NCBI RefSeq assembly: GCF_002571225.1
Contig: NZ_NVEC01000019.1
Coordinates: 34,997-98,996 of the forward strand
Source of the DNA: Bacillus sp. AFS059628
GTDB taxonomy: Bacteria; Bacillota; Bacilli; Bacillales; Bacillaceae_G
Direction of reading: 5' to 3'
DNA: 64,000 nucleotides
Part shown: positions 474-51,809 of the stretch, piece by piece
Layout: each line of letters opens with the position of its first letter
How positions within the stretch are numbered: the first letter of the stretch is position 1
Made by a program: the position numbers and the translations under genes
The notes under the pieces: model-generated
What the model was told of the DNA's origin: nothing
Database searches by the model: none
The model's input: the letters and a program-made list of their open reading frames with translations, nothing else

Positions 474-1109
474 TCAACGCTGTGGAAAAATAAGTTTATT
501 TTCTGTTCCTAAAAGCAGCCTTTGTATATTTTCCATATGCCTGAAAATAACCATAAACGCCATTAGGAATGCAAATATATAAAAATATAAGGTATTCTCA
601 AAAACAGGAATAAATGAAATGACCGCGACAAGCAATGTAGCACATATTGTACCTAAAGAGACATAACGGGTTAAAGCTACTATTATCACAAAAAAGCCAA
701 GGCATAAAAGGGCCATAACCCAGTCAATCATAAACAGTACAGCCACTGCTGTAAGTGCTCCCTTGCCTCCTTTAAACCCAAAATATACCGGCCAGTTATG
801 CCCTATAACCACCCCTGCGCCCGCCGCTAAAAGGCTTACGCAATCTTTAGCCTCTCCCGAATAAAAGTAAACGCTAAGGAACAAGCCTATATAACAGGCA
901 ATTACCCCTTTTAATATATCTCCCGCAAGAACAAACACCGCAGCAGATTTCCCAAGTACCCTCAGAGTATTGGTAAGCCCGGCGCTTTTGCTTCCATGGC
1001 TTCTTATATCCTTGCCGTATATTTTCCCTACAATCACCGCTGTATTAAGGCTTCCTAAAAGATAACCAAAAACTAAGGCCGCAAAAATCTTTAAAATATC
1101 CATCATCAC
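474..1109 (-). CDS. plsY: PlsY-like acyl-phosphate:glycerol-3-phosphate acyltransferase
   Basis: The 211-aa polytopic membrane protein carries the three PlsY family signatures: a HGSKSAGLTN segment near residue 38 (family form GSGNxGATN), GHNWPVYFGFKGGKG near residues 103-117 (phosphate/acyl-phosphate loop), and a late MEN motif at the C terminus. PlsY makes 1-acyl-glycerol-3-phosphate from acyl-phosphate in the membrane and is normally chromosomal. Length is normal and the frame is open, so it could be active. It lies inside the IS231-like element beside fabZ and fabH fragments. Codon use looks more GC-rich than the neighbouring plasmid genes, which suggests capture from another Firmicute. 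ATG 1109 follows a GGGAGAAGAG-type RBS. Confidence 0.85.
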   Translation of the reverse strand: MMMDILKIFAALVFGYLLGSLNTAVIVGKIYGKDIRSHGSKSAGLTNTLRVLGKSAAVFVLAGDILKGVIACYIGLFLSVYFYSGEAKDCVSLLAAGAGVVIGHNWPVYFGFKGGKGALTAVAVLFMIDWVMALLCLGFFVIIVALTRYVSLGTICATLLVAVISFIPVFENTLYFYIFAFLMAFMVIFRHMENIQRLLLGTENKLIFPQR

Positions 1110-1313
1110 TCTTCTCCCTTTACATTATTCTGAATTTCTTTTTTTCTACATCAATACAGGGTTTTAGCATTGTTCTTCTCCAGAAAATTTTTCAATAAAC
1201 TTCTACTTATTTATTCATGTTAAAAGGGCATCTACAATAAGGACGCCTTGCATGACTGAATAGTTAGAAAAATGACAGATAAAAAATCCTTCTTTAGTTA
1301 CAACATTTTGGAT

Positions 1314-1415
1314 CTAAACTGCACGCTTTCCTTCTTCTACTTCAATGATCCGATCAATTAATAAAAGGGGATAACGATGGGGAGTAATTTCTTCAATTTG
1401 TTGAATATTGAGCAT
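1314..1415 (-). pseudogene. fabZ: fabZ 5' fragment (3-hydroxyacyl-ACP dehydratase)
   Basis: A 33-codon open frame starts at ATG 1415 after an AAGGAGAGA RBS. It matches the FabZ amino terminus, including [19 protein letters not shown] and the [13 protein letters not shown] segment, then meets a stop. The catalytic His and Glu regions are absent, so this is a remnant. It is divergent from the fabH fragment and in the same direction as plsY. It indicates that the passenger segment came from a fatty-acid/phospholipid gene region. Confidence 0.75.
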
Positions 1416-1486
1416 GAATGTCTCTCCTTTATACCATAGCTAGATATTTTAGTTAGTTTAATTTCCAGAAGTAAAATGTTTGAATA

Positions 1487-1516
1487 TTGACAATAATTAG
1501 TATCTAGTACTATTAT
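1487..1516 (+). promoter_or_regulatory. Promoter with FapR-type operator
   Basis: TTGACA (1487-1492) and TATTAT (1511-1516) form a sigma-A-like promoter with an 18-bp spacer. The spacer and -10 contain TTAGTATCTAGTACTAT (1497-1513), close to the published FapR palindrome TTAGTACCTRRTACTAA that controls fabH, plsX and related lipid genes in Bacillus. Its place in front of the fabH fragment fits that regulon. This is a motif match by eye only. Confidence 0.65.
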
Positions 1517-1561
1517 TTGATTATATAACTAAGTATTGAAATGGTAAAGGGGGATAAATGT

Positions 1562-2657
1562 ATGCAATCAAAAGCAAGAATTACAGCTATTGGTACCTAT
1601 GTACCTGAAAAAAAGCTGACCAATGATGATTTAGAAAAATTAGTAGATACAAATGATGCATGGATTGTACAAAGAACTGGGATGAAGATTCAGCTTGAGT
1701 ATGATTTATTAAGTGGGCAGTTCCTACATATTCATACAGGCCCAGGTAAACAACATGATCGAACCTATGGTTCTCTATGTGCCCCAACTGTGACAGCGAA
1801 TGATTTATGTATCCGTGATTTAGGTTATTTTCACTTGAAAGATCTTCAACATATACAAGATAAAAAGGCATATTATATCTCACGTATCAAATCGAATACA
1901 CGTATTTATCAAAAAAATCCCGACCCTGATTATTTTCAAGATGGCAGAATCAAGAAAGGTACAGAGTATATACAGATAGATATGGAAACGTTAATGAACT
2001 CTTTTCAACCAGGACAAACATGTGAAATATTCAACGCTTATGTAGGAATGAATGATAAAGTCTCAACTCGTGTGATTGTTCATCGACTAACCAAAGAACA
2101 ACAACAAAAACGATTACAAGATCAAGCTGTAAGAGAAAAAAAGAAAGGAATGAAGTATTCTTCTCGTAGTAAACGACTCAGTGGTATCAATGTATATATG
2201 ACAAACACCCCCTACAGATATTGTCCCGATGGGACAGGTACATGACTGGTATTCTTTGCGTTGGCAAATCGAAATTTTATTTAAAACGTGGAAGTCATTC
2301 TTTCAAATCCATCATTGTAAAAAGATAAAACCAGAACGATTGGAGTGCCATTTATATGGTCAATTGATTGCCATTCTACTCTGTTCTTCTATCATGTTTC
2401 AAATGCGCCAATTGCTCCTCATGAAGAAAAAACGAGAGCTTAGTGAGTATAAAGCAATATATATGATTAAAGATTATTTTCTTCTTCTATTCCAAACTAT
2501 TCAAAAAGACACCCAAGAGCTATCAAAGGTGTTACTTCGCCTGTTCAATCTCCTACAGCAAAACGGCCAGAAATCACATTGTTATGAGAAGAAAACAGTC
2601 TTTGATATATTAGGTGTCGTTTACAATTGTACCCTGTCTGATAATCAAGTCGCTTAA
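1562..2657 (+). pseudogene. fabH 5' fragment fused to truncated IS231 transposase
   Basis: Residues 1-42 from ATG 1562 match the amino terminus of FabH (ITAIGTYVPEKK, WIVQRTGMK). Without any stop the frame then becomes IS231-type IS4-family transposase, with CIRDLGYF (second catalytic Asp region) and YYISRIKSNTRIY. A frameshift at about 2211-2240 (near ACCCCCTACAG) throws the frame off, and the rest ([19 protein letters not shown], the YREK-type region with the catalytic Glu) continues in another frame to 2657. The first catalytic Asp domain is missing. The product cannot be a working FabH or transposase. The natural fusion probably arose from a deletion that joined the passenger genes to the transposase. 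Confidence 0.85.
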
Positions 2658-2845
2658 AGTAAAAAAAATGAAACCCGTTAGGGTTTATTTCGTATGCAAA
2701 GCTTTAAATTCCCTATACGTAGTCTTTAGAAAAAAGAAACAACCCTTATTATAATTGACATTGTATAAACTTAGCTTGATAGCGATGTGGCGGTACCCCT
2801 ATAGGTACACTTGCAAGTATATTTATAAATGTACTTATAAGTGAA

Positions 2846-3175
2846 TTATTTATATTCCTGTCTATATAATTTAAACGAATAAATAGCTCCAATGAAGAAT
2901 ACAAAGGCTTCAAACAATATAAAGATTTGACGGAAATTCTCAATATCTTTACCAACTAGAGAAATAAATATAGCATTCATTAGAATTTGAGTAGTAAACA
3001 TACGAGAAGTAATTTTTAAATAAATAGCATTTGTTCTTTCATCTTGTTTACCAATTTTTTTGTAAATAATAATAAGTGCAATTACTGAACCCAAAAATAG
3101 AAGTGCTGTAAGTCCTACAACGATATTAAAATTGGCTGTACTTTCTAACATCCATTTATTTAATAGATCAATCAT
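2846..3175 (-). CDS. Small membrane protein
   Basis: The 109-aa product has an amphipathic start and three probable membrane helices (about residues 16-38, 60-75 and 83-101) separated by a charged loop with KIGKQDERTNAIY. ATG 3175 follows AAGGAAG at good spacing. It lies downstream of an Xre regulator gene on the same strand. Pairs of a small membrane protein and an Xre regulator with membrane helices are common in Firmicutes. I cannot assign a function. Confidence 0.6.
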   Translation of the reverse strand: MIDLLNKWMLESTANFNIVVGLTALLFLGSVIALIIIYKKIGKQDERTNAIYLKITSRMFTTQILMNAIFISLVGKDIENFRQIFILFEAFVFFIGAIYSFKLYRQEYK

Positions 3176-3409
3176 TATTATCTTCCTTTCCTACATAAGA
3201 GAATATTTCGTTCTTCTTTTTCACTATAATAAAAAAAGAAAAAGGAAAACATCGAACTTTCTTACAAACATTCGTGTATTCTTACAGTTTTGTCATTTTA
3301 TAAATTTATTCATTGTCTTGCCTTTCCCTATTTTCTTTGGAAAACATAGTGAATTACGAGAAAGAACGCTACAAGATCCACTTTCGAGAACTATAATTAT
3401 GTAAACACA

Positions 3410-3442
3410 AAAGTCCTCCAGTTAAACAATCCGGAGGACTTT
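3410..3442 (-). terminator. Intrinsic terminator after Xre gene
   Basis: AAAAGTCCTCC ... GGAGGACTTTT forms an 11-bp stem with A/T tracts on both sides, just past the stop of the minus-strand regulator gene at 3458. Confidence 0.75.
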
Positions 3443-3457
3443 TAATAGTTTTCTAAG

Positions 3458-4018
3458 TTATCTTCCAAATACACTCAATCCTAAATAAATCAAACTATAA
3501 CTAATTAAAGCACTTGCAAGCATCAAACCTATTTTTAATAATTTGTCTTTTATATTCGGCTTTGCTTCACTTACAGGTTTTCCCTCTATAAAATCAACTA
3601 TTTGACGATAAGTTTTTAAATTATGCTCTTTTTTCAAGTTTTCAAGCTTCGATGATGAAAACATAAGCAAAATCGTAAGTACCACAGGTATTATAAGACC
3701 ATAATAACCAAAAAAGTAAAATACAGGTGCAATAGAAATAGGAAGCATAAACATTAATGCTAACATGATGTAACTCCACTTAAAGAAAGCTGATTTTTGA
3801 AGTTCTTCTTTCATGATCTTTACATCTCCTTTAACTAAATCATCTAGGGAGACATTAAAAAGAATACTCATCATTAATAAATTGTGAATATCTGGATAGT
3901 TTCTTTCATTTTCCCAGTTAGAAATAGACTGTCTGGAAACATGAATTTTTTCTGCTAACTTCTCTTGGGACATATTATCCCGTTTACGAAAATATTGTAT
4001 TTGTCTACCAATGTTCAT
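3458..4018 (-). CDS. Xre-family regulator with C-terminal membrane helices
   Basis: The first 60 residues are a Cro/C1 helix-turn-helix (IGRQIQYFRKRDNMSQEKLA, VSRQSISNWENERNYPD). A cytoplasmic segment follows, then membrane helices around residues 78-95, 100-118 and 160-182. This architecture is a membrane-tethered transcription regulator, frequent in Bacillus. Its target may be its own promoter or the small membrane protein gene downstream. It begins at ATG 4018 with a GGGAGATGTA-type RBS. Confidence 0.8.
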   Translation of the reverse strand: MNIGRQIQYFRKRDNMSQEKLAEKIHVSRQSISNWENERNYPDIHNLLMMSILFNVSLDDLVKGDVKIMKEELQKSAFFKWSYIMLALMFMLPISIAPVFYFFGYYGLIIPVVLTILLMFSSSKLENLKKEHNLKTYRQIVDFIEGKPVSEAKPNIKDKLLKIGLMLASALISYSLIYLGLSVFGR

Positions 4019-40805: not shown

Positions 40806-41230
40806 GATTTTCACCTCAATTCAAAATGTTAGAACTTACTTGTAATTTTATATTTAAATAATAAGATTTACAAGAAGAGGGAATAAAAGAAAGAACCCGC
40901 TGGAGTTCGGGTTCTTTTCAGAAGTGATGATGTATTCTCGGCTTGAGAACTGAGAAAATACAAAAATATAGTACAACGAGTTTTAGAGAATTTCAATACT
41001 AAATTAGAGTTATTTCGGAGGAGGATGAAGGAACCAAGGTAGTGATAAAGTATATGCGTTTTTAAAAAATGAGTAGGATATCTTAAGGAAACATAAAAAT
41101 TATTGAAATTTTTGTATGAATTCATTAATATGGAATTATATTTATTGTTTAATTGATTCCGTTTATTCCCACACCTTTTTGTGTGTTGTGGTTGAGTTGT
41201 AGAAGCAAGTTGCGTCTTGTTTCATTTGTG

Positions 41231-41312
41231 AAAGGGCTTCTTTGAGCCGATTAGTGTATATAGCTTTTTTTGCTATGCACATTATTAATCGACTTGAAGA
41301 GGCCCTTTTTGT
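41231..41312 (+). promoter_or_regulatory. Long leader terminator before 41389 gene
   Basis: AAAGGGCTTCTTTGAG ... CTTGAAGAGGCCCTTT with inner CCGATTAGTG and TATAGC/GCTAT arms makes a hairpin of about 75 nt followed by T5. It stands about 75 bases before the start codon, again between upstream DNA and the RBS. The rest of 40896-41230 holds only a short GAACCCG/CGGGTTC terminator (40891-40920). Confidence 0.65.
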
Positions 41313-41388
41313 GTTGTTTTCAAGTCTGTTTGATTGGTAGTACCCATTATTACACTGGGCAAAAATTATTATCTAGGGGGATTTATTT

Positions 41389-41940
41389 ATGATTATCAGT
41401 TATGAAGTATCTTTATTTTGTTCTGCGCATCCAGATGAACTTATTCCAAGTTTACGTGCATTACGAATGAGAGTTACAAAAGAAGGAGCATTTTGGGAAC
41501 GAGATTGTTATCAGTTTTCTATTAAACCATCAAACTTGTCACAGCGAGCAGCAAAACAAGCAGGGGAAATCTATTTGTATCATGTTCATTTTAATGGATG
41601 TGTACGGGATTTCCTTTTTTTATTGGAAAGATGTTTTAGAGGGACGAGTTTTCGCTTTACTGCTATCCGTGGTTTTTTAGATGTAGAAGGTTATTCACTT
41701 AAGAAATGGAAACCAATTCTACGTAACCACCACATAAACTCTGCAGATGTAGATTGTATTTTCAAGAAAGATGATCTTGTAATGATTGTGCATCACCATG
41801 GAGGTTTAGAGGTGGTTAAGCGTGCGGAAAAAGGCGAACAATTAAAAAAAGTAAACTTTTTAGAGGTAGATAGCTGGTTACAAGCACTCAATCCGACAAA
41901 AGAGGATTTATTCTCTTTAACAGGTGTGAGTGTATCGTAA
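41389..41940 (+). CDS. Hypothetical protein before the zincin gene
   Basis: The 183-aa soluble protein starts at ATG 41389 after TAGGGGG. It contains several His and Cys residues (IVHHHGGLEVV, HVHFNGCVRDFLFLLERCF), which might bind metal, and a beta-rich N terminus (IISYEVSLFCSAHPDEL). It is in the same direction as the zincin and primase genes and may be co-transcribed. No family recognised. Confidence 0.6.
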   Translation: MIISYEVSLFCSAHPDELIPSLRALRMRVTKEGAFWERDCYQFSIKPSNLSQRAAKQAGEIYLYHVHFNGCVRDFLFLLERCFRGTSFRFTAIRGFLDVEGYSLKKWKPILRNHHINSADVDCIFKKDDLVMIVHHHGGLEVVKRAEKGEQLKKVNFLEVDSWLQALNPTKEDLFSLTGVSVS

Positions 41941-41985
41941 TGAGTGATTTACATAACTATTTGGAAGTTTACAGACAGAGGGCAT

Positions 41986-42030
41986 GACAGAAATCCGTAG
42001 TGAAAAATGACTATGAATTTCTGTCTTTTA
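41986..42030 (+). promoter_or_regulatory. Leader hairpin before zincin gene
   Basis: GACAGAAATCCGTAG pairs with CTATGAATTTCTGTC, followed by TTTTA, 23 bases before ATG 42053. A terminator between the 41389 gene and the zincin gene. Confidence 0.7.
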
Positions 42031-42052
42031 TTTTATTCAGGAGGATTTTAGT

Positions 42053-43115
42053 ATGAATTTATTTGAACTGTTTGGTTTAGAGGTAAGAGAAGACATAATG
42101 GTACAAGATGTGAGAACAGATAAACAAGCTCGCAATCGATACAGTTATGATGTAGGTGAGAAATTAGCGGGAGCAAAGAAAGAGATACGAGCTTTAAAAG
42201 AATCATTTTTAGTATCATTTTCCTTAGAAATTTTAGCTGAAATTGAAAAAGAATCGGCAGTAGAGGCACTAAATGCATTGGATCGAAACACATTGATTCC
42301 ATTTTCTTTTGAAAATGAAAAAGAAAATGATGTCCCGCCACGTGTGGCAAAGTTAAAGCAACTACTAGTGGGCAGGATAAATAAGAAACCAATTGTAGAT
42401 ACACCGGCTGCAAGGAAACTATATGTTCAGGCATGTAGAAGAATATGGCATGATTTACAGTCGGTACATACCTTAGAACAATGGGTAGATCTTGTTGTCT
42501 CTTATGGTATGGAAATGAGCAATGGTTGGTCTGCATTTAGAAAAAATAAGAATGTAACATTCACATTTAAAAGAATGGTAGAGGAATATTTTGATGAGTT
42601 TATTGATGCAGATGGTATGGAGTTATTAATATTAGGAAAGAAATTCATATCACTTTGCACAAATTCAAAAAGTATTAATTCTACGTACCTTCGTGTATCA
42701 CATGAACTAACATGGAATGATTTACTTACGAAAAAGGTTACGACCCGTAAGAAATCCGCAGCTGCTTGGAGTAGGAAACTGCCGGATACCCTGCAAAGAA
42801 AAGGGCCAGGAATAGAAATTGCTACCAAACCAGAAGACGTAGTTGCTATGTTTGGGTTAAAGGGGATGCAATTTGGTCATTATTGCACTGAACAATATGC
42901 CAAAGAGCATATTAGGCATGTATCTGAAGCGTTACATGATTTAGCTCGTATATTGGGGATTCCACCTGAGTATATAGGGTTAGGAGGACGCTTAGGACTT
43001 GCGATTGGTGCGAGAGGAAGCGGCAATGCATTAGCACATTATGAACCTTCTACCAAGGTCATTAATTTAACTCGTGATAATGGAGTCGGGGCATTGTGTC
43101 ATGAATGGGGACATG
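42053..43115 (+). CDS. Zincin-like (LPD1-type) metallopeptidase protein, exon 1
   Basis: Exon 1 encodes residues 1-354 of a protein that is 583 aa after splicing to 45818-46506. Near the end it reads VINLTRDNGVGALCHEWGH, the zinc-binding HExxH motif of the large-polyvalent-protein metallopeptidase domain, preceded by FGARGSG-like AIGARGSGNALAHYEP. The family is typical of conjugative elements and phages. The exon stops after one base of the next codon (phase 1), where intron 1 begins GTGCGAC. ATG 42053 has an AGGAGG RBS. Confidence 0.88.
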
Positions 43116-45817
43116 GTGCGACACGTTTCTCTATAAGTAGTTGAACTACGAAAAGAGAACATAAATCAGTATTTATTAAAGGTTTATGATAACTGTATTC
43201 TCGATAGATGAAATGAGAGCTGCCAACAAAAGCTTGAAGCGTCTACTCTGATACTCCTACATGCGATAAAGCGCCTATTGGCTTTATTGTATGAAGCTAG
43301 GTGAAGTCGCCTGAATAATACCCTAACATCTCCTTTACGAGTTGTGGAAAAACAAGTAGAGGTACTTGTCGTATTAGATAGGGCGGGAGGCTATAAAACG
43401 ATTATGGTTAGTAATTCCATTAAGGATAGACGAACAACTGAATGTACCCATCTATACCCATAATGTCTAGAAATGGACTTCTTGCTAAGTTCGCAAGGTC
43501 ACTTACCGATGAGTAAAAATCGTGATTATGAAAATCGGGAGCAATTATATGGTATTGCTAAAGTGGCAGGTGGAGAGGTTGGACCTAAAATCGTATGCAC
43601 AGCTAGAGGTTACGGAACGTGGAAAGTCACATACAGAAATGTTAATCGTTATAGGCGAGTGTTCTGTCACTACAGGGAAGCTAAATACTAGAAGAAATGT
43701 AGTTCAATGTGATGAGAGTAGGGGCATAGTACCGTTGAAACTATGGAAACATAGTGGAGGGATAGCCCTAAGTCAATACCAAAATAATTATTATAGTGAA
43801 TATGTTTGGAATCGAGTAAGAGTAGATAGGTGAAATCCTATAAAGGAGAGTAACAAACAAACTAATGGCAAATCGTAGTATTCAACCACAATATTATAAT
43901 TTTCAAGGGGAATTAGATGGTCTGTATGCAAAATCAAAAAATGGTGGGAACTTCAAAGATTTATATTCTTTCATTATTGATGAAAGAAATATAAAACTTG
44001 CCTTTGGTACTATTAAATCTAATCAAGGAAGTAAAACACCTGGTACTGACCAAATAACAATTAATGAATACAAAGGATTCTCAGATGATGAAATCATTCA
44101 TCTAGTCCGTGAAAAACTAATTAACTTCAAGCCTGATAGCGTAAGAAGGGTTTTCATACCCAAAGCTGATGGAAAAAGTAGACCGTTAGGAATACCAACT
44201 ATGCTTGACCGCATTATTCAACAGTGTTTCAAACAGATTCTTGAGCCGATTGTAGAAGCAAAATTTTATGAGCATAGCTATGGGTTTAGGCCTTTGAGAT
44301 CGACTCACCATGCAATCGCTCGTACCAACTTTTTAATTAATATTAATAAGCTTCACTATTGTGTAGATATTGATATAAAGGGTTTCTTCGACAATATCAA
44401 CCATAATAAGCTAATAAAACAACTATGGAATATTGGGGTAAGAGACAAGCAGGTTCTAGCAATTATTAAGAAAATGTTGAAATGTGAAATTGTGGGTGAA
44501 GGTAAAGCGGAAAAAGGAACGCCACAAGGTGGTATCCTCTCTCCTTTATTGGCCAATGTCGTACTTAACGACTTAGACCATTGGGTAGCTTCACAATGGC
44601 ATAACTTCCCAACGAATACACACTATGAAGATAACAGACCAAGATATAGGGTACAGAAGAAAACGAAACTAAAACAAGGCTTTATTGTGCGATATGCAGA
44701 TGATTTTAAAATCTTCACAAATAGCTACAATTCAGCTAAAAGATGGTTTCATGCGGCGAAAAACTACATTGAAAAGAATCTTAAGCTTGAAATCTCAGAA
44801 TCTAAATCAAAAATTACTAACCTTCGTAAAAGGAAGTCGTTATTTCTAGGAATCGAATTTAAAGCAGTTGCTAAGAAGAAAAAATTTGTGGCACAAAGCT
44901 ACATTCCTAAAGATTCAATGAAATCAATTCAAGCAAATATTAAGAAGAAAGTGAAGTCTATCCGCATTAATACGATTCCAGTAAAAGTATCTGAATTAAA
45001 TGCTTATATTCGTGGTGTGCATGACTACTTTAAAGTTGCAACACAAGTAAACAAAGGTTTTCACAAAATCACCTATCACTCTAATAGGGTTATTTATAAT
45101 AGGTTAAAAGGTAAGGTTTATTTCCATGCGGATAATGGAAGTAATAAAGGTTATAAGAAATCAGGCTACAAAACTTTTAATGTTGGTGGTATTCAAGCAA
45201 TTCCCATCGGTAACGTGTCACATTCAAGTGCTATGAATTTTTCTCAAGCCCACACCATTTACTCAGAAGAAAGTCGGGTAAAGTACGGCCACAAAGAAAA
45301 AGCAGCACATATGAAAAAGGCATTTGCTTATCTTGAAAGGAATTTTGTTCCCAACCGTAGCATTGAGTTTAATGATAACCGTATTCGTCGCTTCGCTCAA
45401 ACACAAGGAAGATGTGAAATCTCAGGTATTGAGATGGCATTCTACCCCCAAATGGTACGTTGCCATCATGTGAAAAGGCGGGCTGATGGTGGCGATGATA
45501 ATTACAGAAATCTCATTATTGTACATGAATTAGCACACAGATTGCTTCATGCTACAAGACCGAACCTTATCGAAAAACTAATGAAACAGCTTATGCTTAG
45601 TGATAAGCAGGTTGAGAAGGTAAATAAACTACGATCCAACATGAATCTATTTACTATTTAATAATACAAAAGTTATTGATGGAACGCCGTATGCGGTGAA
45701 AGTCGCACGTACGGTGTGAGGCGGGGGAAAAGTTGGAGATAACATCAAATTCTTACCTATCGTACCCGAAATGGGCAGTAGCTACCCTCTTGCTAATCGC
45801 AGGAGGATGCTACACAT
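43116..45817 (+). mobile_element. Group II intron 1 (class B-like) with 3' extension
   Basis: The intron starts GTGCG at 43116 and encodes a reverse transcriptase/maturase (43865-45661). Domain V is at about 45683-45718 (CCGTATGCGGTGAAAGTCGC). Domain VI ends CTTACCTATC at 45761, but joining there inserts 19 extra residues. Joining at 45817/45818 gives HEWGHA-LDHFLYD, exactly the family consensus HEWGHALD. The extra 56 bases fold as GTAGC(TACC)CTCTTGC/GCAGGAG...GCTAC. This matches the B. cereus intron B.c.I4, reported to splice 56 nt downstream of the predicted site. Confidence 0.85.
43865..45661 (+). CDS. ltrA: Group II intron reverse transcriptase/maturase 1
   Basis: The 598-aa intron-encoded protein has RT blocks including RVFIPKADGKSRPLGIPTML, GFFDNINHNKLIKQLW, GTPQGGILSPLLANVVLNDL and the catalytic YADD (IVRYADDFKIFT, about residues 275-286), then maturase domain X. 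It ends with an HNH nuclease (CEISGIEMAFYPQMVRCHHV ... DNYRNLIIVHE). It aids splicing and reverse-splicing mobility. The active-site residues look intact, so the intron is probably mobile. Confidence 0.93.
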   Translation: MANRSIQPQYYNFQGELDGLYAKSKNGGNFKDLYSFIIDERNIKLAFGTIKSNQGSKTPGTDQITINEYKGFSDDEIIHLVREKLINFKPDSVRRVFIPKADGKSRPLGIPTMLDRIIQQCFKQILEPIVEAKFYEHSYGFRPLRSTHHAIARTNFLININKLHYCVDIDIKGFFDNINHNKLIKQLWNIGVRDKQVLAIIKKMLKCEIVGEGKAEKGTPQGGILSPLLANVVLNDLDHWVASQWHNFPTNTHYEDNRPRYRVQKKTKLKQGFIVRYADDFKIFTNSYNSAKRWFHAAKNYIEKNLKLEISESKSKITNLRKRKSLFLGIEFKAVAKKKKFVAQSYIPKDSMKSIQANIKKKVKSIRINTIPVKVSELNAYIRGVHDYFKVATQVNKGFHKITYHSNRVIYNRLKGKVYFHADNGSNKGYKKSGYKTFNVGGIQAIPIGNVSHSSAMNFSQAHTIYSEESRVKYGHKEKAAHMKKAFAYLERNFVPNRSIEFNDNRIRRFAQTQGRCEISGIEMAFYPQMVRCHHVKRRADGGDDNYRNLIIVHELAHRLLHATRPNLIEKLMKQLMLSDKQVEKVNKLRSNMNLFTI

Positions 45818-46506
45818 CATTGGATCATTTCTTATATGATTGTAGTCATGATTTTCAAAATGGTAGCCTTGCTTTCTTATCAACTGGCAAGAGTATCGGG
45901 AATATCGTGCCTGCTATTATTAAGGAAAAGATGCAAGCTGTAGTAGATGCTTGTAAGCAAGGAAAAGTGGCTAGAGTAATCAACGTAGAAAATGCCTACA
46001 GTAGAAAATGGTATTTCTATGGTGGTGTTATCGATAGTTATGATGTGTTTAAAGGAAATATTTCAAATATTTTAGAATCACATCATGCTAGTTTGTGTAG
46101 GAAGCTTGATACTTTATCAGGAGCACCAAAGACGCGTATGGAGCGTAAAATTGAAAAAGAATTTGAGAAAACCGCACAAATGTTAGCTGCATATCATTAT
46201 AAAAAAACAGGCGAAAAACTTAGTGAAATACCCTATCAAGTGAAAGGGTCTGTATACTTTGATACAGCCATTAAGTTAGATAAGAAGAGAACTAAAAAGT
46301 ATTGGTCTACAAATCATGAGATGTTTGCTAGAGCATTTGAAGCATATGTAGAATCAGCTTTGCTAAATCAAGAACATAGAAACGATTATTTAGTTTGTGA
46401 TACATATTCTTTTGTATATCCGATAGGAGAACAAAGAGAACATCTAAATAGAGGTATAAAGAGTTTAATGGAAGTAGCTGTTCCATATATAATAAATAGT
46501 ATATAA
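45818..46506 (+). CDS. Zincin-like protein, exon 2
   Basis: Exon 2 begins with two bases that complete the codon split by intron 1 (G + CA = Ala) and continues LDHFLYDCSHDFQNG. The conserved NHEMFARAFEAYVE near the end is the third motif of this zincin family, carrying the probable third metal ligand. The open frame that runs upstream to 45733 is intron sequence, not protein. Spliced product: 583 aa. Confidence 0.85.
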
Positions 46507-46516
46507 GGAGTGGGAA

Positions 46517-47507
46517 ATGATGAATTATAACATACAAAAAGGACAATTTCGTTTAACAACTGCACATCCAAGAGGAAGTTGGTGGGAATTTTATCGTGTT
46601 CCATGTCCAATCTGTAATGGTATTGGAAACTGTATGCTGCATGTTTCACAGGAGAAAGTAGCATGTACCCGTGTGGAAAGCAAGTGGGTATACGGTAAAA
46701 ATTCAAGTAATCCAAGTTACATCCATTATCTAAATGGTAAGAAGCAATACAAATTACCAGCTGTAGATGTGGTAAAGGGACATAGTAAGCGTAGTAATGA
46801 AGAATTAGATGTATTTAATCGTAATTTAATCGAATTTTTGCCGTTAGAGGAGAATCACCATATACATTTACTGCAAGATAGAAAAATGACTGAAGAAGAA
46901 GTACAGGTACGTCAATATCGTTCTTTTTTAAAGCAACAAATTGTTTTGGAAGATGATAATACGTACACAACCATTTGGGAAAAGTTATTTAAACAAATTG
47001 GCAAAAAAGATTGTTGGAAGGGGATACCTGGCTTTTATGAAATGCAGAAAGGACAACTTTCTCTTCGTTTAATGGCAGGTTTTCCAGGAGTTATGATTCC
47101 GTTCCGAAACCAATATAATCAAATTGTTGGTTGGCAAGTACGTGTAGATGAAGTAAAGAACTCTGTTCATGTGAAATCTGGACCTACAGGTATACAAGCT
47201 GAACTAGTCCAACAGCCTAATGTTGTGAAAATAACGAAAAATGGTGATTGTATCTATGAAGGAAAACTAGAAATAGGGAAAAATAAAGAGTTATTAATCG
47301 GCGGGGAAAAAGTTGTTGTAAAGATACATAAAGGTCAAAAATACTTATGGATCTCTTCAGCAAACAAAAATGAAGGAACCGGTGCGGGAGGTAGTGAAAA
47401 TCCACTCCCTGTACATGTAGCGGTACCAAGCTCACATTTGAAACATTGGAAGTCTGGTACGCTGCACAAAACAAAATCAGTAATGATTACAGAAGGGCCG
47501 ATGAAGG
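46517..47507 (+). CDS. DUF3854/TOPRIM primase-like protein, exon 1
   Basis: Exon 1 encodes 330 residues. The N terminus has a zinc-finger-like cluster (VPCPICNGIGNC, later VACTR). The middle includes GIPGFYEMQKGQLSLRLMAG and PGVMIPFRNQYNQIVGWQVR, typical of DUF3854 proteins. The end is VMITEGPMK, the start of the TOPRIM domain (E-G-P-x-K). The exon is cut after the first base of the next codon. ATG 46517 lies behind AAGGAGTGGG, 10 bases after the zincin gene, so both form an operon. Confidence 0.8.
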
Positions 47508-50269
47508 GTGCGAAACGTTCCACTATAAATGAGTAGTCTCATGAAATGTGGGGATATATTTGTAGAATATATCTAACTATTTACTCGAATTATTAGGTGA
47601 AAGTCCTAATCATGACTAATGAACATTGTCATGACTATAATACTCCAACGTGCGATATGGACTGTAAGCTACATGGTGCGGAGCTTGGAAAAGTCGTAAT
47701 TCAAGTAACCTAAAACCTCGGTCATGGTGAAAATAATGCGGTAGTCCTTAAAAGCAGTCTATGATGAGACAACAAACCCATGTGTGAACTGTCGTGAGGA
47801 CCTTATTCTGAAAAGAATATAAAGTAAATAACTTACACTCTCTTTCATAGTGTAATGTTCTAATTAGTTGAAATGCTAGTTTGCATAGGAAAACAATTGT
47901 TCATTAAATTCCATATGATTTACCGGCAGAGAGTGGGCATCTAAGGACATGCAAATAAAGGGATAGAGTAAATGGAACGTTTGAAGGCTATGTTGGGAGA
48001 GATTACAGTCTCAATGAAATTCATAGCTGGCAGAGGTGTCATAGTAGTAATGATTGTTGTCTCAATGACGTTACTATAAGGAACCATTCCGAAGTGTAAC
48101 AGAGAGGAAAAAGCAACGGGAGCGAAGGACACCAGTCGGTAATTTAATATTTCTTAATCTATCAACGTCCAAATGAGGTTAATCCGAATAAACAGCTAAT
48201 TCATGAAATCTACTCTTCTTTAACAATGAAATAAAGAAGGTGATGTAGTGAAGGTAAACAGACGATTGATTAATTCTGAAAGCGACCTAATCAAAACACT
48301 AGAGGATTTATACTTTATGTCCAAGGAAGGTAAAAACTTTTTCAGCATCATGGAAATATTATCTAATGAAGAAGTGATCAAAACCGCCATCCACAACATA
48401 AAGAGTAATAAAGGAAGCAAGACTGCGGGGATTGATGGGAAAACTATTGATGATTTTCTACAAATGGAAACATCTAGTTTAGTAGAGCTAATCAGGAACA
48501 CTATTAATAGCTACACACCACAACCGGTAAAGCGCATCTACATTCCAAAAGGGAATATCAAATCCAGTAAGAAATCTGAAATGAGACCATTGGGTATCCC
48601 TAATATAATAGACCGCATTATTCAAGAGCTAGTGAGGATGTTCATTGAACCTATTGTAGAAGCTAAATTTTACAAGCATAGTTACGGTTTTCGTCCCTAT
48701 CGTAGTGCGGAACATGCTCTAGCCAGAATGAGAGACGTAGCACGTAGAAGTAAAACGTATTGGGTGGTTGAGGGTGATATCAGAGGTTATTTTGATAACA
48801 TTAACCATAACAAACTATTAGAAATTATGTGGAATATGGGGATTAAGGACAAAAGATTATTAGCCATAATTAAGAAAATGCTAAAAGCAGGATATATGGA
48901 TGAAGGAAGGTATTACAAAACAGATAAGGGTACGCCACAAGGGGGAATCATTAGCCCCTTACTAGCAAACATTTATCTGAACGGTTTTGACTGGTTTATA
49001 GCCAAAGAATACGAATACCATCCATACACCGATAGGTATCAATCAAGAAAAGCTGCATACCAAAAATTAAGAAAAGAAGGGCACTGTCCAACCTATCTAG
49101 TTAGATATGCAGATGACTGGGTTATATTAACAACTAGTGAAGAGAATGCAACGAAATTGTTGAAAAAAGCAGGAAAATATCTCAAACATGTACTCCATCT
49201 TGAACTGTCGAAGGAAAAGACACTTATCTCCGACCTGAGGATAAGACCTCTGACATTCCTTTCCTATAACATGAGGTTTGGAATGACAAAGGAAAATAAG
49301 GAAGCGCCGTTACTATATCCTAATATGAAAGCGGTTAGTAGGTCAGTTGAAGAGATTAAAGTTATTGTTAAAAAACTAAGGTACAGTCCAGACAACGAGT
49401 GGTTTGCTACCAACATAGAAAAAATTAACGAAAAATTGATTGGATTAAGCAACTACTTTAACAAGGGCATTAGCAAACGTACACTAGAGAAAATTGACAA
49501 TAGGCTATTCTGGGGAATTTGGAAGTCTTTTAAAAGTTACTTTAGATATGAAAAGGATACAAAGATGGCAATGAAACACTTTGTTCCTATGAATATTTTA
49601 GGAAATCGTATTAATAGACATGAAAAGTACCAAGGAAAAACTCTAGCAATAGAGATTGATGGTATCATGATTGGTATAACTAAGAGTGCCATTACGCCAG
49701 TACAATACTCCAGAAACTTTAATCAAGATATGACACCTTATACGCCTGAGGGAAGAAAACTATATGCCAAAACGATGGAAAAAGTTCCTCCTCTTGCGAG
49801 ACCAGCTACATATAAAGCAGATGAGTTATTTATAGCTCATTCAGATAAGAGTCGGGAAATTACAAACTTCGAATATATGATGAACAAAGACTATGCGTAC
49901 AATCGAGATAAAGGTAAATGTCGAGCTTGCTCATGCTACTTATATGGCAAGGCACATTGCCATCATAAAAAGAATAAATTACCCATGCATGAAATCAACA
50001 AGGTCAAGAATTTAATCTCTCTTTGCAATGAGTGTCACAAGTTGGTACACAATAGCAAACCAATTGAAGGCACAACCAAAAGAGTGAAATTGATTGAAGA
50101 GCTGAGGAAGACAATTAGAGATTAAGAAATATAGCAACGCACATCGCGAGATGTCACGTTGTACATAAGAACAAATTATCGATGGCAAGCCGTATGCGGT
50201 GAAAATCGCACGTACGGTTTAGAGTGGGGGAAAAGATGGAGATTACTTCAAAGTCTTACCTATCACTAT
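47508..50269 (+). mobile_element. Group II intron 2 (class B-like)
   Basis: It begins GTGCGAAAC at 47508, encodes a reverse transcriptase (48248-50125) and has domain V at about 50185-50220 (CCGTATGCGGTGAAAATCGC) and domain VI ending CTTACCTATC. Splicing at 50269/50270 gives EGPMK-ADLIADLL, the usual DUF3854 form. Splicing six bases earlier at 50263 gives EGPMK-ALSDLIADLL and also stays in frame, so the 3' end is uncertain by 6 nt. It lacks the long 3' extension of intron 1. Confidence 0.85.
48248..50125 (+). CDS. ltrA: Group II intron reverse transcriptase/maturase 2
   Basis: The 625-aa protein starts at GTG 48248 behind AAGAAGGTGA. RT blocks include RPLGIPNIIDRIIQELVRMF, GDIRGYFDNINHNKLLEIMW, GTPQGGIISPLLANIYLNGF and YADD (LVRYADDWVILTTS). 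Domain X and a C-terminal HNH nuclease (CRACSCYLYGKAHCHHKKNK, CNECHKLVHNSK) follow. It is related to but clearly different from the intron 1 protein, so the two introns were gained separately. Confidence 0.93.
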   Translation: MKVNRRLINSESDLIKTLEDLYFMSKEGKNFFSIMEILSNEEVIKTAIHNIKSNKGSKTAGIDGKTIDDFLQMETSSLVELIRNTINSYTPQPVKRIYIPKGNIKSSKKSEMRPLGIPNIIDRIIQELVRMFIEPIVEAKFYKHSYGFRPYRSAEHALARMRDVARRSKTYWVVEGDIRGYFDNINHNKLLEIMWNMGIKDKRLLAIIKKMLKAGYMDEGRYYKTDKGTPQGGIISPLLANIYLNGFDWFIAKEYEYHPYTDRYQSRKAAYQKLRKEGHCPTYLVRYADDWVILTTSEENATKLLKKAGKYLKHVLHLELSKEKTLISDLRIRPLTFLSYNMRFGMTKENKEAPLLYPNMKAVSRSVEEIKVIVKKLRYSPDNEWFATNIEKINEKLIGLSNYFNKGISKRTLEKIDNRLFWGIWKSFKSYFRYEKDTKMAMKHFVPMNILGNRINRHEKYQGKTLAIEIDGIMIGITKSAITPVQYSRNFNQDMTPYTPEGRKLYAKTMEKVPPLARPATYKADELFIAHSDKSREITNFEYMMNKDYAYNRDKGKCRACSCYLYGKAHCHHKKNKLPMHEINKVKNLISLCNECHKLVHNSKPIEGTTKRVKLIEELRKTIRD

Positions 50270-50921: not shown

Positions 50922-51809
50922 ATGAGTGTATATGTAAAAAAGAATCTAGTAAATTTACGAGTTGATTATGCTTTTAAACGTTTGTTTGGAGGAGAAGGAA
51001 ATGAAGATATATTAATTGGGTTTCTTAACGCGGTACTACAATCATCTATTGATGAAGAAATTACATCTTTGCACTTAGATGATCCGCATCTTCCAAGAGA
51101 GCAGAAGGATGATAAACTGTCTATTTTAGATTTGCGAGCTACGCTAAATAGTGGTATAAAAATTAATATAGAGATTCAAGTTCGAGACAAAAAAGATATG
51201 ATAGAGCGTTCTTTGTTCTATTGGTCAGGTATGTATTATTCTCAAATGACTCAAGGGATGAAATATACAGAATTAAGACCAACCATTTGTATTAATATAG
51301 TGGATTTCATTCTATTTCCAGAGGAGCAGGAGTTTCATAATGTTAATACAGTGATGAACAAAAAATCTAAACGTATCATTACCGAAAATATGCAGTTGCA
51401 TTTTCTTGAAATCCCAAAAGTGATTCAAGAATGGCAGGGAAAACGAATGGATCCGTGGGAAGATTCTTTAGCGCGTTGGTTACTATTATTTCCTGCGCAT
51501 GAGGATGAGAGATTAACAACAATCCTGGAGGCGATAGCAATGGAAAAAGATCCAGTTTTTAAAAAAGCGATAGAGGATTGGGAGCGTTTAAGTAGCGATA
51601 AGGATTTTTTACGCTTATATTGGGCTAGAGAAAAAGAAATAAAAGATAGAATATCTGAAATAGAAACAGCAGAAGAAAAAGGTGCAAAAGAAGCCAAAAT
51701 ACAACTAATTCAAAACATGATTAAAGTAGGTGTACCTTTAGAGAAAGTTGCAGAGGCTGCTGAATTAAGTGTCGAAGAGGTTAATGAGATTTTAAGAAAT
51801 AAAAAATAG
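50922..51809 (+). CDS. Rpn/PD-(D/E)XK family nuclease
   Basis: The 295-aa protein matches the Rpn/PDDEXK family once called transposase_31: NLRVDYAFKRLFGGEGNEDI at the start, then ILDLRATLNSGIKINIEIQV giving the D ... E-x-Q catalytic core, and LFYWSGMYYSQMTQGMKYTE. The C-terminal tail (IQLIQNMIKVGVPLEKVAEA) is a short helix-turn-helix. Rpn proteins promote DNA exchange and some act in defence. It starts at ATG 50922 after GAGGGAGAAT and ends before a terminator (51822-51865). Confidence 0.85.
   Translation: MSVYVKKNLVNLRVDYAFKRLFGGEGNEDILIGFLNAVLQSSIDEEITSLHLDDPHLPREQKDDKLSILDLRATLNSGIKINIEIQVRDKKDMIERSLFYWSGMYYSQMTQGMKYTELRPTICINIVDFILFPEEQEFHNVNTVMNKKSKRIITENMQLHFLEIPKVIQEWQGKRMDPWEDSLARWLLLFPAHEDERLTTILEAIAMEKDPVFKKAIEDWERLSSDKDFLRLYWAREKEIKDRISEIETAEEKGAKEAKIQLIQNMIKVGVPLEKVAEAAELSVEEVNEILRNKK

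Follow-up and report, generated by a model that had tools for sequence, protein, structure and literature searches.

A group II intron with a domain VII-type 3' extension interrupts an LPD1/HExxH plasmid gene of a Bacillus strain and probably splices beyond that extension

Group II introns with an additional domain VII were described by Tourasse et al. in 2011, whose text, in the portion available, lists seven Bacillus cereus-group introns together with B.psf.I1 and Ba.sp.I2 (PMC3261151). The published domain VII extends the 3' end by 53 to 56 (70) nt and folds into two stems: S1, which is small and conserved, and S2, which is longer and carries an invariant internal loop at a distance of 3 bp from its base, a putative tetraloop receptor according to the same paper (PMC3261151). 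Several of the listed introns interrupt plasmid genes whose products are annotated as TraG/TraD or contain a primase domain, and the hosts listed already include Alkalihalophilus pseudofirmus and a strain near B. firmus; in B.c.I4 and B.th.I6a, branching or the second step of splicing is influenced by the extension (PMC3261151, available text). In the known cases covered by the accessible part of a review, the 3' end lies beyond the canonical AY by approximately 50 to 70 nt (PMC4424553), and the function of the extra domain is called a mystery in the part available of a 2022 review (PMC9294222). Within the full-text collection searched, PMC3261151 was the only paper naming any of four such introns, and among the literature matches listed, only reviews treated domain VII introns after 2011.

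The window (the whole 64,000-nucleotide stretch of Bacillus sp. AFS059628 DNA that was analyzed) contains an intron with such an extension at positions 43116 to 45817, on the plus strand, as are its two exons and the intron parts given below. The intron begins with GTGCG and ends with ACAT, and the 3' exon starts with CATTGG at 45818. A sibling plasmid, CP045534.1 of Bacillaceae bacterium C02 (locus L001), carries the same region at approximately 96% identity without the intron, with window positions 41116 to 43115 matching L001 6003 to 8005 and positions 45814 to 47033 matching L001 8001 to 9221 with one gap (BLAST). In this empty allele, 43115 is joined to 45818 without a gap; an exonic ACAT would cost a one-base deletion in the alignment, and other join registers would add a one-base gap or a mismatch. 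The joint of 43115 to 45818 thus sets the intron at 43116 to 45817, with the segment following domain VI inside it. The C02 frame at the joint reads CHEWGHALDHFLYD, and HEWGHALDHF, which the sequence-only reading had predicted to be restored by a junction at 45817, stands in this natural intron-less allele, which bears out the 45817/45818 junction to the base. An empty site of this kind defines the inserted unit; for the splice joint it is evidence only insofar as group II introns insert by their known reverse-splicing mechanism. That the intron ends after a 3' extension was thereby confirmed at the level of sequence, and splicing at this end would be expected in the cell. Annotation that ends such introns at domain VI would misplace the 3' exon.

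The 5' exon (42053 to 43115) is an open reading frame (ORF) of an LPD1-type HExxH plasmid gene that ends inside the codon after HEWGH. It is 97% identical to the intron-less C02 protein over the aligned part, and its homologues are annotated as LPD1 domain-containing proteins. The 3' exon (45818 to 46506) encodes the LPD1 domain (PF18796, E = 6.5e-18) and is 94% identical to C02 over the aligned part. HExxH was kept in all five intact LPD1 homologues aligned, with an insertion after the motif in none of the five. The 5' exon part of the host gene had no Pfam match, and a PDB search with the host gene returned one chain at E values up to 1, an SGTA protein (E = 0.058). The insertion had been described as lying in a catalytic motif of a transfer-linked protein; the HExxH motif stands, with the zincin designation suggested by this motif only and the link to transfer resting on the gene for a TraG/AAA_10-type ATPase approximately 8 kb downstream. 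In Niallia sp. Man26, a different, conventional intron (L009, approximately 806 to 3590) was found upstream of HExxH in a gene apparently belonging to the same LPD1 family.

Group II features of the intron included the GTGCG 5' end, domains I, V, and VI, and the AT 3' end. The domain I core (43188 to 43397; RF02004, 147.9 bits, E = 8.7e-33) and domains V and VI (45682 to 45765; RF00029, 60.7 bits) both exceeded the Rfam gathering scores, and self-splicing of 43116 to 45817 is predicted. The branch-point A is probably 45759, judging from an unpaired UA in the Rfam alignment. The intron encodes a 598-aa reverse transcriptase with a YADD motif (43865 to 45661; Pfam RVT_1, E = 2.4e-38), in which a weak HNH match (E = 0.0065) fell below its cutoff and no GIIM (maturase) domain was detected with Pfam at E = 0.01. 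Pairings for EBS1/IBS1 and EBS2/IBS2 were partial and noisy, and the attempted assignments of EBS1 and EBS2 were left unused for that reason.

Domain VI in the Rfam alignment ends at 45765, with 45760 to 45763 paired, and the conventional AY end is GTAC/CC at 45765/45766 (AY at 45764 to 45765). The conventional end assumed earlier, 45760/45761, falls in the last domain VI stem and was abandoned. The distance from 45765 to 45817 is 52 nt, which is not a multiple of 3, and splicing at the proximal end would shift the reading frame, leaving 23 codons from 45768 onward before a stop, in place of the 19 foreign in-frame residues expected by the sequence-only reading. The extension of 56 to 57 nt given there is correct as 56 nt when counted from the CTATC end (45761) and shrinks to 52 nt from the conventional AY. 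The exon frame runs open through the extension (ORF 45733 to 46506), and frame alone is therefore compatible with other proximal ends; these are excluded as the intron end by the empty site, not by frame.

The extension, domain VII (45762 to 45817), was characterized by folding and by alignment with five relatives. The stretch from 45761 to 45817 had a folding energy of -23.4 kcal/mol (z = -4.26), with 0 of 200 shuffles as stable, which bears out the long stem-loop (GTAGC/GCTAC plus a further stem) proposed from the letters. Hairpin S1 (45765 to 45775, CCC-GAAAT-GGG) pairs CCC at 45765 to 45767 with GGG at 45773 to 45775, and its 5' strand contains both sides of the conventional junction, 45765/45766. 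Its 11 bases, CCCGAAATGGG, were identical in 12/12 domain VII matches, B.psf.I1 included, a conservation that is partly by construction, as some matches were found with an S1-containing pattern or model. Hairpin S2 (45778 to 45813) consists of a basal stem, GTAGC (45778 to 45782) with GCTAC (45809 to 45813), and an upper stem, CCTCTTGC (45786 to 45793) with GCAGGAGG (45799 to 45806), and has an internal loop, TAC/AT (GCTACC/GGATGC), after three basal pairs as in B.psf.I1, the putative tetraloop receptor of the literature. A 4-nt tail, ACAT (45814 to 45817), follows S2 and forms the distal boundary.

The S1 and S2 fold was present in six of six domain VII sequences. The S1/S2 pattern, taken from domain VII introns themselves, had a single match in the window and none in 100 shuffles, and model R1 scored the window extension at 74.5 bits, with the window among the sequences from which it was built. 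Covariation in S2 scored 0.340 against a shuffled mean of 0.091 (reached by 0/500 shuffles; 6 distinct sequences), and two-sided changes were seen at three of the seven pairs counted, a count reached by 28/500 shuffles. In the S2 alignment, 96.7% of cells pair, with two unpaired cells (columns 31 and 69), and sliding the partner by 1 to 3 columns lowered pairing to 33 to 40%. A correlation of S1-flanking bases in the first six sequences was rejected, since later introns break the pattern. S1, S2, and the invariant loop match the published domain VII and are shared with B.psf.I1, and the extension can keep its designation as B.c.I4-type; boundaries, structure, and comparative pairing are all read from the sequences themselves.

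The distal 3' end was found in 4/4 occupied/empty pairs examined. In addition to the window intron, these were an intron on the C02 plasmid (L001 9222 to 12064) versus the window, empty at 47033/47034; the intron of Cytobacillus pBO1 (L003 888 to 3639) versus strain CK19, ending after domain VII; and the CK19 intron (L004 890 to 3639) versus strain M7, seamless at 1890/1891. The C02 and pBO1 pairs had a one-base ambiguity in the letters, which was settled by the GTGCG start. The four pairs represent three lineages, since pBO1 and CK19 carry closely similar introns at two separate sites. For the Niallia circulans intron, a search with the 5' flank matched only its own record and gave no second empty site. 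These are natural occupied/empty pairs of domain VII introns from beyond the B. cereus group.

IIB and IIC introns recognize the 3' exon through IBS3-EBS3 pairing (PMC4424553, available text). When the first 640 nt of 12 introns were aligned, a single column was Watson-Crick complementary to the +1 base of the 3' exon in 12/12. Three added domain VII introns, with +1 bases fixed in the script before the run, fit the same column (3/3), giving a total of 15/15, and the next best column reached 11. Label shuffles equaled this column in 0/5,000 trials on 15 rows, in 2/5,000 on 13 nonredundant rows, and in 47/5,000 on 8 nonredundant domain VII rows. The column corresponds in the window to G43575, a putative EBS3 base on the strength of its behavior, with C45818 as its partner. 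The test omitted L008, for which no 5' end was found, together with the copies L011, L012, L014, and L015, and it used a roughly set 5' end for L028; for introns without a known empty site, the +1 base was placed by visual inspection, either 4 nt beyond the S2 stem or after the AY following domain VI. The proximal +1 base, C in 12/12 domain VII matches, would pair with the column in only 2/10 domain VII rows. The window is one of the two and does not discriminate, because its distal and proximal +1 bases are both C. The distal 3' splice site is tied to a one-base pairing in the 10 domain VII introns tested.

The locus is best read, with a probability of about 0.93, as a mobile domain VII (B.c.I4-type) intron just after HEWGH, with its 3' end at 45817, a fitting EBS3 base, and masking by S1. 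The intron sits in the plasmid LPD1/HExxH gene, within the codon that immediately follows HEWGH. Branching would occur at the bulged A of domain VI (45759), and the second step would use the AY lying 4 nt past S2 (45817) rather than the conventional AC at 45765. S1 pairs the bases flanking the conventional junction and should thereby mask it, and G43575 would pair at the distal end with the base that opens the 3' exon. The intron, domain VII included, comes and goes as a single unit. A hairpin over the old splice junction offers a testable proposal for the function of the extra domain.

Alternative 3' choice, with mostly distal and sometimes proximal splicing and the truncated protein serving as regulation, has a small share of the probability: both AY ends are kept and alternative 3' splicing has been reported for B.a.I2 and C.te.I1 (PMC4424553, available text), but the proximal junction is paired in S1, the proximal product would end soon after HEWGH, and EBS3 misfits the proximal base in 8/10 rows. 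Slightly less probable still is an intron that is splicing-dead and simply interrupts the gene, as the missing GIIM match at E = 0.01 might suggest; the full-length 598-aa protein with YADD, the good scores of domains I, V, VI, and VII, and two open exons with 94 to 97% identity to the intron-less allele all argue against it. Splicing at 45765/45766 with the extension left in the mRNA is very improbable, despite an AC at that end in 12/12 domain VII matches and a window G43575 that could pair with C45766 too, given empty sites that disagree as the inserted unit, the frameshift and early stop, and a putative EBS3 left unpaired with the proximal +1 base in 8/10 domain VII rows.

Exact matches to the S1/S2 pattern numbered 5 in 4 genomes of a collection of 84,980 species. 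Model R1, the filters of which miss some weak matches, matched 6/193, 1/398, 1/41, 3/397, and 3/397 genomes in five overlapping draws, corresponding to 8 distinct genomes after removal of G034, one of the six in the first draw, which was set aside as a false positive. A 28.6-bit match, L021, was discounted, with no domain V-VI-like sequence in the 240 bases inspected. In total, 12 domain VII matches were found among 28 source sequences, and the named hosts were Niallia circulans, Cytobacillus firmus, C. oceanisediminis, Bacillus sp. B1-b2, the C02 strain, and A. pseudofirmus. Model R1 detected domain VII in 0/11 relatives (L030 to L040), and viral contigs had no exact match to two S1/S2 patterns. 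In one match (L029, genome G658), the intron-protein frame is only 290 aa with an intact domain VII, possibly a decayed intron, and in another (L028 337, genome G661), a domain V-like match approximately 180 nt upstream of the intron start used suggests neighboring introns. Domains V-VI of introns on the Enterococcus plasmids listed were 88 to 90% identical, with matches stopping near the domain VI end; these introns probably lack domain VII.

Domain VII is patchily distributed on a tree of 23 intron proteins: it needs four changes, all four forced by well-supported branches, and a single clade of the 8 domain VII rows was rejected (p-AU = 3.35e-05). The tree left out another intron (L002_8486), the near copies L015_6678, L012_5561, and L004_3508, and the partial 290-aa frame L029_3269; L005, L008, L015_736, and L028_337 had no long frame and are absent from it. 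The protein of window intron 1 forms a deep branch on one side, with a best identity of 49% in the set. By tblastn, identity did not exceed approximately 50% among the 60 plasmid records listed of 360, and 1 of the 360, outside those listed, fell in the 60 to 80% band. The window intron is a new member of the domain VII group, with a protein approximately 50% identical to its closest relatives listed. Tentatively, domain VII may be a portable 3' module that was gained, lost, or exchanged several times between diverged lineages, with S1 acting as a lid on the old junction and the added module moving the 3' splice site in one step, no further change being needed. Recombination at the near-identical domains V-VI, which the 2011 paper already suggested, is one way in which such exchange could have happened (PMC3261151, available text).

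The second intron of the window (47508 to 50269) resembles the first in domains V-VI but has no domain VII, with CACTAT right at the domain VI end. Its protein groups with those of one conventional and one domain VII Niallia intron on the other side of the tree. CP045534.1 lacks intron 2 at this site, where the exons show one mismatch at +2, and an ORF running from near the 3' end of intron 2 past it matches DUF3854. Further downstream, positions 50922 to 51806 encode a PD-(D/E)XK nuclease family transposase (PDDEXK_2, E = 3.4e-61). The C02 intron at L001 9222 to 12064, the third intron of this plasmid family and located downstream of the LPD1 gene, shares domain VII with window intron 1 (90.0% identity over 110 nt of domains V-VII) but lies in a neighboring gene that is intron-free in the window, and its intron protein is diverged.

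Like the window intron, B.c.I4 of Bacillus cereus ATCC 10987 has an extension of approximately 56 nt with two hairpins, a likeness drawn from its published description; it differs in its host gene, and its splicing after the extension was shown experimentally (PMC3261151, available text). B.psf.I1 (A. pseudofirmus OF4, pBpOF4-01, locus L010) is like the window intron in the S1 sequence, in the S2 internal loop, and in an EBS3 column that fits the distal +1 base; it is unlike it in its longer S2 (70-nt extension), its primase host gene (PMC3261151, available text), and its position on the opposite side of the intron-protein tree. The two proteins share that tree, which has no class reference set, and B.psf.I1 is of the B class according to the available text of PMC3261151. 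Points that go beyond the cited texts, and that may be partly known, are the evidence for EBS3, the exact empty sites (four), the additional hosts, and the position of S1 over the old junction. The claim of a new example was overstated as to novelty, such introns being already known; with its empty site and structure, the window intron is another case alongside B.c.I4 and B.psf.I1.
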